DNA from: Fibrobacter sp. UWR4
Lineage (GTDB): Bacteria > Fibrobacterota > Fibrobacteria > Fibrobacterales > Fibrobacteraceae
Assembly (NCBI RefSeq): GCF_003149045.1
Contig: NZ_QGDU01000002.1
Coordinates: 62,001-126,000, forward strand
DNA length: 64,000 nucleotides
Direction of reading: 5' to 3'
Numbering within the stretch: position 1 is the first letter of the stretch; every line of letters starts with the position of its first letter. Shown piece by piece: positions 17,578 to 32,292 of the stretch. The notes beneath the pieces were generated by a model. The model saw nothing but the letters and a program-made list of their open reading frames with translations. It had not been told where the DNA came from and ran no database searches. The position numbers and the translations under genes were made by a program.

Positions 17578-18285
17578 TTACAACCCCATGAGGACATACA
17601 GGCCAACAGCCTTCTGGTTATTATTGTTTTCCTGGAGGATGCCGATATCAAAATCCAGACGGACACGGGCACCGCCTATCGCAAATTCCAGCTTGGGGAT
17701 AATATCAAGCATAAAGTCCTCCTTTACGTTTCCGATACTTCCCGATGAGGTAATTTCAATCATGCAAACCACGGCCCTTCCGAAATGGAGCGTAGGGGTC
17801 ATCCCCACCACCAGCTTGGCAATGCCGTCTTCTCCCGTGGCCCCGTCCAGGAAACCGCTACGTAATTCATAGGCGTTCGAGAAGTTCTTGGCGATATAGT
17901 GTTCCATTCCGTAGGTAAACACAAGGGCGCTTTTATCATTGCGATTTAGACCAAAGTAACCATCCAGTTCGATGTAGGAACCGGGTTTATAACGGTAACG
18001 GCCACCAAAATCCACAGAGGCCACTACATTTTCCAGTCTATTGTAGGCGTACACATCAACCTTCACGCCCACATCCCATTCCTTGGCCAACGTACCCATC
18101 AGGTTCACGGGAATGACCACATTGTCGCTAAAATCAGAACGAAGACCAACGCCAGCCGCAAATTTAGGAGCCGGTTTCGAGTCCGGACCATAGGTATAGC
18201 GCATATCCCAAATGCGATCCAGGGCAAAGGAGTTTGCAGAAAGCAAGGTTGCAAAAGCTAAAATCAAAATACGGGTAAACTTCAT
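17578..18285 (-). CDS. predicted outer-membrane beta-barrel protein, hypothetical
   Basis: 235 residues. A signal peptide (MKFTRILILAFATLLSANSFA) precedes alternating short strands rich in Tyr, Gly and Asp (VDFGGRYRYKPGSYIELDGYFGL), ending in YVLMGL with a hydrophobic final residue, as in outer-membrane barrels. No named family recognised. No Shine-Dalgarno; a TAAATT -10 box ends 7 nt before the ATG, so the mRNA is probably leaderless. It is divergent from hisC through a shared palindromic promoter. Confidence 0.6.
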   Translation of the reverse strand: MKFTRILILAFATLLSANSFALDRIWDMRYTYGPDSKPAPKFAAGVGLRSDFSDNVVIPVNLMGTLAKEWDVGVKVDVYAYNRLENVVASVDFGGRYRYKPGSYIELDGYFGLNRNDKSALVFTYGMEHYIAKNFSNAYELRSGFLDGATGEDGIAKLVVGMTPTLHFGRAVVCMIEITSSGSIGNVKEDFMLDIIPKLEFAIGGARVRLDFDIGILQENNNNQKAVGLYVLMGL

Positions 18286-18292
18286 ACCAATA

Positions 18293-18306
18293 AATTTAGC
18301 TAAATT
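18293..18306. promoter_or_regulatory. palindromic back-to-back -10 boxes for hisC and the divergent outer-membrane gene
   Basis: AATTTAGCTAAATT is a perfect 14-bp palindrome. The right half gives TAAATT for hisC (27 nt before its ATG, which has AGAGG). The left half read on the minus strand gives TAAATT ending exactly 7 nt before the ATG at 18285. Both halves cannot be melted independently, so one polymerase probably excludes the other. Confidence 0.55.
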
Positions 18307-18333
18307 TGCGCCGTTAAGAATAAGAGGTTTAAA

Positions 18334-19419
18334 ATGATCGAACCACGTCCGGAATTATCCAAGCTTTCTGACTACGTCCCTGGCAAGTCCATGGACGAAA
18401 TTCGTGCGAAATACGGCCTTACCGATGTAGTGAAGTTGGCCTCCAACGAAAATCCCCTCGGTCCCTCCCCCAAGGCCAAGGAAGCCTACCTGAAGATTGT
18501 GGACACATTGCACCTCTACCCCCGCGGCGATGCTCCCACCCTGATTAACGCGTTGGCAGAATTCTACGGCGTTAAGACCAGCCAGCTGGTGCTGGGCAAC
18601 GGTTCAGACGAAATCATCGACATGGTGGGTAAGGCATTCATCCGCCAGGGCGACAACTGCGTGGGCATTACCCCCACCTTCAGCGTCTACAAGTTCACCA
18701 CCCTCTCCAACGGTGCCGATTTCATTGGCGTTGGGGTCGGTGACCAAAAGACCGACTTGAATAATTTGGCCGCCGCCATCAACGACAAGACCCGCGTAGC
18801 CTTTATCTGCAGTCCCAACAACCCCACGGGCGTTTACTACACCGGTGCAGAACTTGAAGAATTTTTGAGCAAGGTTCCTTCCAACGTGATGGTGTTCCTG
18901 GACGAAGCCTACGCAGAATTTGCAACTGCGGAAGACTATCCCCGCATGTTCGAGATGATTGCGAAATACCCCAATTTGCTCATCAACCGTACCTTCAGCA
19001 AGATCTACGGTCTGGCAGGCATCCGTCTGGGTTACGCCATTTCCAGCGAGCAGATCATCAAGGCCATGTGGAAGATCAAGCCGCCTTTCGACATCAACCT
19101 GGCAGCACAGGCCGCAGCTATCGCCGCCCTCTCCGACAAGGGCCACGTAGAAAGTACCCGCCAGCTGAATGCCGACGGAATCAAGGTGCTGAAGCCCTTC
19201 TTTGAAGGTCTGGGTTTCAAGGTTCTCCCCACCCAGGGAAACTTCATCTGCGTACATATCGGTCCGAAAGCCAAGGAAATGGTCCAGTTCCTGGAAGAAA
19301 ACGGTATGATCATCCGCGGTCTTACCAGCTTCGGTCTCCCCGAACATGTCCGTATCACCTTGGGTAAGCCTGAAGAAAATAAGTTCTTGATGGAACTGGT
19401 CAGCAAGTGGGTAAAGTAG
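18334..19419 (+). CDS. hisC: histidinol-phosphate aminotransferase
   Basis: 361 residues. PLP-dependent transamination of imidazole-acetol phosphate in histidine synthesis. The class I/II fold is recognisable: LASNENPLGPSPKA (about 34-47), SPNNPTGVY, LDEAYAEFA and the Schiff-base lysine in TFSKIYGLAGIRLGYA (about 218-233). Length is typical. AGAGG precedes the start. The inositol-monophosphatase-family gene next in line suggests the pair supplies two consecutive histidine steps. Confidence 0.95.
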   Translation: MIEPRPELSKLSDYVPGKSMDEIRAKYGLTDVVKLASNENPLGPSPKAKEAYLKIVDTLHLYPRGDAPTLINALAEFYGVKTSQLVLGNGSDEIIDMVGKAFIRQGDNCVGITPTFSVYKFTTLSNGADFIGVGVGDQKTDLNNLAAAINDKTRVAFICSPNNPTGVYYTGAELEEFLSKVPSNVMVFLDEAYAEFATAEDYPRMFEMIAKYPNLLINRTFSKIYGLAGIRLGYAISSEQIIKAMWKIKPPFDINLAAQAAAIAALSDKGHVESTRQLNADGIKVLKPFFEGLGFKVLPTQGNFICVHIGPKAKEMVQFLEENGMIIRGLTSFGLPEHVRITLGKPEENKFLMELVSKWVK

Positions 19420-19659: not shown

Positions 19660-20463
19660 ATGGCTACATCCGAAAACATTGATTTATTGAATATCGCCTT
19701 AAAGGCAGCTGATCTTGCCCAGGGCAACATCCTGAAGTATTTCCAGAACGACGTCGGAGTGGAATGGAAGGCTGACAAGACCCCCGTGACCATCGCTGAC
19801 AAGAAGACCGAAGAACTTTGCCGCGAATTCTGGGCAAAGGAAACTCCCGGCTTTGGCGTCATTGGCGAAGAGTTCGGAATCGAAAGTCCCGACGCAGAAT
19901 ACCAGTGGGTCATCGACCCCATTGACGGCACCAAGGCTTTCATTCACGGAGTCCCGCTGTTTGGCACTTTGATTGCACTGTACCGCCGTGGCGAAGCCAT
20001 CGCAAGCCTTATCCGCATTCCTGCCATGAACACCGCCGTATGGGCCGTGAAGGATGGTGGCGCATTCCTGGACGGACGCCCGGTGAAATGTTCCAAGGTG
20101 GAAACGCTCTCTGAATCCCTCGTCCTGAGTGGAACGGTCAACACGATGGAAACCGCGGGCTATGGCGAGGCCTACGCCGCCGTACGTCGCGCCGCACGCC
20201 TCCACCGCGGTTGGGGCGACTGCTACGGATATTACCTGGTGGCCGCGGGACGCGCCGAACTGATGTTAGACCCCATTGTTTCCCTCTGGGATATCGCACC
20301 GTACCCGCTGCTCTTCTCCGAAGCGGGAGGCAAGTTCAGCACCATCGACGGCAAGACGGAACTGTTTGACGCCAACGGCAAGCCGGTTTCTTCCATCTAC
20401 GAAGGCTATACCAGCTGCGCCTCCAACGGGCTCATCCACAACGAAGTGCTGAGCAAGTTCTAA
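19660..20463 (+). CDS. hisN: inositol monophosphatase family protein, probable histidinol-phosphatase
   Basis: 267 residues. Mg-dependent phosphatase with the family motifs GEEFG (about 68-72), VIDPIDGTKAFIHG (about 86-99) and the second metal site WDIAPYPLLFSEAGG (about 211-225). HisN-type enzymes of this family remove phosphate from histidinol phosphate, and the position directly after hisC supports that role; a general inositol or sugar phosphatase is the alternative. The start codon lacks a Shine-Dalgarno and follows a G-poor repeat tract. Confidence 0.8.
   Translation: MATSENIDLLNIALKAADLAQGNILKYFQNDVGVEWKADKTPVTIADKKTEELCREFWAKETPGFGVIGEEFGIESPDAEYQWVIDPIDGTKAFIHGVPLFGTLIALYRRGEAIASLIRIPAMNTAVWAVKDGGAFLDGRPVKCSKVETLSESLVLSGTVNTMETAGYGEAYAAVRRAARLHRGWGDCYGYYLVAAGRAELMLDPIVSLWDIAPYPLLFSEAGGKFSTIDGKTELFDANGKPVSSIYEGYTSCASNGLIHNEVLSKF

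Positions 20464-31152: not shown

Positions 31153-32292
<1,140 letters not shown>

Follow-up and report, generated by a model that had tools for sequence, protein, structure and literature searches.

The perfect palindrome AATTTAGCTAAATT between the divergent hisC and outer-membrane genes of Fibrobacter sp. UWR4 is probably, with a likelihood that we put at about three in four, a pair of TAnnTTTG-type core promoters in back-to-back order, their TA ends 2 bp apart (Table 1). Directly observed are the boxes and their conservation, the narrow range of distances at which they precede the start codons, and the signal that the box gives in sampled parts of the genome. The first-pass annotation of the window (the whole 64,000-nt stretch of DNA analysed here) had described TAAATT on both strands with GC between, 7 nt to the ATG of the minus-strand gene and 27 nt with a Shine-Dalgarno (SD) sequence to hisC, and all of this is confirmed: the 14-mer has GC at its centre, TAAATT can be read on either strand, the gaps to the ATGs at 18285 and 18334 are 7 and 27 nt, the latter with AAGAGG inside, and the two start codons are 48 bp apart. 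The same annotation took the TAAATT hexamer as the unit, but the conserved unit is instead TAnnTTT(G), at 18291-18298 and 18301-18308, the box of the outer-membrane gene ending in the window in A instead of G. A generic sigma-70 consensus scan of 18100-18500 found no promoter; both boxes follow the TAnnTTTG pattern rather than TATAAT.

Table 1. Features of the hisC/outer-membrane intergenic region and its flanking genes (window positions)
Feature	Position	Strand	Remarks
235-aa outer-membrane beta-barrel gene	17578..18285	-	N-terminal signal-like helix, then 12 predicted strands
Predicted outer-membrane mRNA start	18285..18286	-	at or 1 nt before ATG (leaderless); from box position
Promoter box TAAATTTA, outer-membrane gene	18291..18298	-	1 mismatch to TAnnTTTG; 5 nt before ATG
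Perfect 14-bp palindrome AATTTAGCTAAATT	18293..18306		element named in the first-pass annotation
Spacer GC, 2 bp, between boxes	18299..18300		spacer 2 in 27 back-to-back loci
Promoter box TAAATTTG, hisC	18301..18308	+	exact TAnnTTTG
Predicted hisC transcription start (G)	18313	+	21-nt leader; from box at -12 to -5
hisC Shine-Dalgarno AAGAGG	18322..18327	+	by eye
hisC, histidinol-phosphate transaminase	18334..19419	+	TIGR01141, 335.6 bits over cut-off 276.55

The 235-aa minus-strand protein has no Pfam match. Its AlphaFold model, for which 23 orthologues were aligned, shows 12 strands and a mean pLDDT of 78.4, and the best PDB matches found for it by Foldseek include the outer-membrane barrels NanC, FapF, OmpG and KdgM, so the label 'outer-membrane gene' given earlier appears reasonable for the protein as modelled. 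Downstream of hisC lies an inositol monophosphatase family gene (19660-20463, plus strand, PF00459), possibly a HisN-type histidinol-phosphatase.

Conservation of the two boxes across the genus

Palindromy by itself is weak evidence, as perfect 14-bp palindromes are common in the window (10, about twice the mean of 4.1 in 10 Markov simulations). The exact 14-mer has one copy in its own genome, where one more site matches at 1 mismatch; a search of five further members of the genus gave one exact copy each in G003, G005 and G030, just upstream of the outer-membrane gene, and none in G036 and G091. With the exact 14-mer present in 10 of 79 orthologous intergenic regions, its occurrence at this place is, as judged from sequence, not due to chance. 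That the symmetry is a chance product of AT-rich intergenic DNA, as the number of palindromes in the window might suggest, is highly improbable, since AAnnTAnnTAnnTTT does not vary across 27 loci, in contrast to the nn and flanking positions, and the outer-membrane proteins of these loci share 51-100% identity with that of the window.

The outer-membrane gene was found in 79 of 80 genomes of the genus (the exception, G075, is listed as 71% complete), and hisC is divergent from and adjacent to it in all 79, though only partly on the contig in three (L005, L103 and L124). Boxes were scored by a script that picked the best match to TAnnTTTG at distances of 3-9 nt upstream of the minus-strand ATG and 8-35 nt upstream of hisC. 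For the outer-membrane gene this gave 48 exact matches, 26 with one mismatch and five with two (L108, boxed one base off, among the five), and for hisC 35, 43 and one, respectively, counts that are inflated by the choice of the best of several offsets. At most one mismatch is thus seen in 74 of 79 outer-membrane boxes, and the best-scoring box lies 4-6 nt before the ATG in every genome. A hisC box with at most one mismatch is found at a distance of 19-25 nt from the start in 77 of 79, the exceptions being L103 and L107, in which the back-to-back box is further off. GAGG occurs in the scanned stretch before hisC in all 79 genomes, and none of the SD-like 4-mers AGGA, GGAG, GAGG or AGGT was found before the outer-membrane gene in any of them. 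The signature of a leaderless gene, a box some 10 bp ahead of the start codon in the absence of an SD, is therefore present at the outer-membrane gene throughout (79/79).

The two boxes stand back to back, with a 2-bp spacer, in 27 of the 79 genomes, of which 25 have the usual hisC leader and two (L103, L107) a longer one; these two and L108 were assigned to this class manually. Because the motif itself served to align the 27 rows, the invariance of TA-NN-TA in them is partly by definition, but a MAFFT alignment of 10 diverse loci, made without reference to the motif, recovered AAnnTAnnTAnnTTT as the invariant columns. Conservation of the palindrome in relatives had been proposed as a check, with loss of one half-site as grounds for rejection. 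Both half-sites are kept in the 27 back-to-back genomes, supporting the earlier view of two promoter boxes, one per strand, each before a real gene. The boxes are kept genus-wide; perfect symmetry is not, the 14-bp dyad being perfect in only 13 of the 27 loci; in the other 14 the arms differ from each other at their nn positions. Nor does a perfect palindrome imply two good boxes, as nine of the ten loci with the exact 14-mer have an outer-membrane-side box that lacks the full TTT and reads TAAATTG(A/G/T) (L108 read by hand). On this comparison of sequences the perfect symmetry of the 14-mer appears incidental.

Separation of the boxes in other lineages

The remaining genomes depart from the back-to-back arrangement in two ways. 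In five a second hisC box, 31-34 bp away, accompanies the old site, and in 47 the boxes lie 20-23 bp apart, 18 of the 47 starting hisC with GTG. A plus-strand TAnnTTT exactly 2 bp from the minus-strand box is found in 31 of the 32 loci that are back to back, with either leader, or have a second box (four of the five second-box loci included), and in none of the 47. As these 47 use a separate hisC box and five more have a second one, the back-to-back layout is evidently not needed. The 18 GTG-start genomes (L027, L028, L030-L032, L037 and 12 more) keep TAAATC at the place that a back-to-back hisC box would occupy, with TAAAAC in L143.

These layouts bear on the reading of the palindrome as an operator for a dimeric transcription factor controlling both genes, for which a perfect 14-bp dyad between divergent genes, kept exactly in 10 of 79 loci, would be a natural candidate. 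We consider this quite unlikely. The asymmetry of the arms in 14 of 27 back-to-back loci, the halves set 20-23 bp apart in 47 of 79 genomes, and the lack of any other exact copy in the window's own genome or in G003, G005 and G030, where no regulon is seen, all favour one promoter box per strand over a dimeric operator. They also bear on whether promoter activity is confined to the hisC box, with the outer-membrane half a by-product of AT-rich symmetry and its gene transcribed from elsewhere. It is true that in the window TAAATTTG is exact and TAAATTTA has a mismatch, and that the outer-membrane-side box is weak, TAAATTG(A/G/T), in nine of 79 genomes, but in all 47 separated-box genomes this gene has a TAnnTTT box 5-6 nt before its ATG. 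Since the box persists where the two are apart, symmetry with hisC cannot explain it, and a leadered promoter for the outer-membrane gene would have to sit in the hisC leader or coding region; a promoter for hisC only is unlikely. Two core promoters, one for each gene, remain the preferred reading.

In the tree of the outer-membrane protein, loci of the back-to-back kind fall on either side of the midpoint root and enclose a single clade of the five second-box loci (support 100/100), and the 47 separated-box loci form a clade with moderate support (89/79). Parsimony alone, on this midpoint-rooted tree, favours an ancestor with the back-to-back layout from which a new hisC box arose twice independently, the larger group losing the old box. 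On the hisC tree, which covers 76 of the 79 rows (L005, L103 and L124 left out), the layouts need nine changes rather than five, indicating that hisC has a partly different history. In six loci (L021, L024, L103, L107, L123 and L125) hisC is 93-98.5% identical to that of the window (partial in L103) and the outer-membrane protein only 59-66%. This contrast and the disagreeing gene trees suggest that hisC may have been exchanged between lineages, with a junction near the promoter. The longer hisC leaders of L103 and L107 have about 15 extra bases between box and SD, in which a small inverted repeat can be seen by eye.

A probable Bacteroidetes-type promoter signal in Fibrobacter

The box found at this locus is the 8-bp -7 box, TAnnTTTG, of the sigma-A promoters of Bacteroidetes (Bacteroides, Flavobacterium), here in a Fibrobacter host, matched exactly by hisC and with one mismatch by the outer-membrane gene. 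It was counted before the starts of 671 genes called in 864 kb of the same genome, the calls being crude (longest open frames of at least 100 aa, with scored starts). It occurs 33 times 0-9 nt before the start, 28 of these at 4-7 nt, compared with four for its reverse complement, two for the reversed and none for the reversed-complement control, and is again more frequent 20-39 nt before the start (29 sites). In the samples from G030 and G091, with few sites, the 0-9 nt bin holds five and three (reverse complement none in either, reversed one and none), and no upstream peak was seen in samples from four genomes outside the genus (5 sites, 257 genes; the samples are small and one is 66% GC). 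Counted irrespective of gene calls, TAnnTTTG is followed by ATG after 4, 5 and 6 nt in 16, 14 and 18 cases, and the AT-rich control TTnnATTG in 13, 9 and 14, which is weaker support than the gene-based count. In the same 864 kb, 30 genes have TAnnTTTG 3-8 nt before the start and no SD-like match, although a box so placed itself leaves little room for an SD, and are predicted to be leaderless; they include those at 31156 (plus strand) and 12845 (minus strand) of the window.

A -33 element (TTTG) gave no clear column pattern in 70 aligned TAnnTTTG sites, which suggests that the 8-bp core may suffice. Such an element could not be identified in F. johnsoniae either, according to PMC7366714. None of eight genomes searched, three of them of the genus, has an RpoD match over the cut-off of 354 bits. 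The best RpoD-like sigma factor of the window's own genome (L191:1495-2352, minus strand, G000:C12), of about 286 aa from the chosen ATG, scores 183.5 bits, and those of G030 and G091 score similarly (185 and 189), while the RpoD-like open frames of G044 and G055 have 519 and 518 aa and 317 and 314 bits, also under the cut-off. We infer that the protein of about 286 aa is the main sigma factor; it may resemble the short sigma factor of Bacteroidetes, and its low score would be consistent with an unusual promoter specificity.

Predicted transcription from the two boxes

In Flavobacterium psychrophilum the TAnnTTTG box spans -12 to -5 (PMC9723704), which places the start 5 nt past the box and gives the two start sites that we infer for this locus (Table 1). 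On the outer-membrane side this is predicted to leave room only for a leaderless mRNA or a leader of 1-2 nt. Each box would be a core promoter, and the two fit into 18 bp. Polymerase bound one way would start near 18313 and make a short-leader hisC mRNA with its SD; bound the other way it would start at about 18285-18286 and make an mRNA for the outer-membrane barrel that would be translated without a leader. The predicted bubbles would open outwards from the TA ends, at about 18302 and 18297, adjacent to each other and with no bases in common, and competition, which the first-pass annotation had placed in a shared melted region, would thus be between footprints. The footprint of RNA polymerase is far larger than 18 bp. 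Two footprints could not coexist, only one polymerase would occupy the site at a time, and the two genes should compete at high activity. A strong switch should nevertheless not be assumed, as the basal activity of all five bidirectional promoters tested in E. coli is reported to be too low for competition, which appeared once one direction was strongly activated (PMC12825309).

A wider account is tentative, and we hold it to be possible with the odds against it. The 18-bp two-way promoter, likely ancestral to the genus, would impose on one polymerase an either/or choice between hisC and the outer-membrane barrel, and at least two lineages would independently have eased this conflict by gaining another hisC box, some 20 or 31 bp farther away from the box of the outer-membrane gene, the old hisC box being gone in one and mostly still there in the other; this would work because Fibrobacter promoters need little beyond the 8-bp box and part of the genes are leaderless.

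Relation to known divergent promoters

In overlapping divergent promoters in general, polymerase bound at either promoter covers the core of its partner. The 2-bp spacer places each box within the other's footprint, given the established footprint size. The bidirectional promoters described by Warman, Grainger and colleagues have starts 7-25 bp apart, mostly 18, and reciprocally overlapping -10 elements, and in Salmonella chromosomes they are enriched between divergent genes (PMC10268837 and PMC12825309). Common to those promoters and this one are pseudo-symmetrical promoter DNA, two divergent RNAs (here predicted) and steric exclusion of two polymerases. Unlike theirs, the boxes here do not overlap but are 2 bp apart, and the start distance predicted from box positions is 27-28 bp as against 7-25 bp, which would put the arrangement just outside the definition of a bidirectional promoter and among overlapping divergent promoters.

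Nor is the back-to-back layout a general design in Fibrobacter. Among 138 divergent gene pairs from three genus members the 2-bp spacer occurs once, at this locus, against about 0.2 in shuffled intergenic regions, and spacers of 0-6 occur twice against 1.4. Over 61 genomes, head-to-head matches to CAAANNTAN{0,24}TANNTTTG number 652 and those to the reversed control 485, and in the window's own genome the 2-bp layout with at most one mismatch occurs 21 times compared with 13 for the control; a widespread head-to-head TAnnTTTG design was rejected on this mild excess. Helical phasing of the spacers (2, 20-23 and 31-34) was considered and is not claimed. In the survey of 138 pairs another divergent pair has boxes 3 bp apart (L085:10000-10080), and a spacer of -2, in which two loose TAnnTTTn boxes share one TA, was found in eight box pairs against 1.8 in shuffles, an excess noticed post hoc among 54 spacers and with the loose box; these lie in intergenic regions of L042, L051, L054, L057, L100, L159 and L163. 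This shared-TA layout may be the commoner two-way promoter of the genus, and the start distance of 23 bp predicted for it is among those reported for bidirectional promoters of E. coli (PMC12825309).

Leaderless mRNAs are reported to make up 5.5% in F. psychrophilum; for B. thetaiotaomicron the reported share of 5' UTRs shorter than 10 nt is about 3.7%, and the two figures are not directly comparable. In our sample 94 exact boxes lie no more than 130 nt from a start, and 28 of them sit 4-7 nt before it. The TA-led leaderless genes of Zheng et al. (2011) likewise have their promoter box some 10 bp ahead of the start codon, with the signal TAnnnT where ours is TAnnTTTG, and were found in one of 37 Bacteroidetes/Chlorobi genomes; the main text of that paper yielded no mention of Fibrobacter (PMC3160421). 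A search covering mainly open-access papers found no study of Fibrobacter promoters, transcription starts or leaderless mRNAs among the literature matches listed.

The arrangement at hisC is thus evolutionarily interesting and mechanistically familiar, a variant of overlapping divergent promoters. Its three states in the genus (the back-to-back layout, the same with an additional hisC box, and boxes apart) form a natural series for testing polymerase competition at divergent promoters, and from it a promoter code based on TAnnTTTG, together with leaderless mRNAs, is predicted for Fibrobacter.
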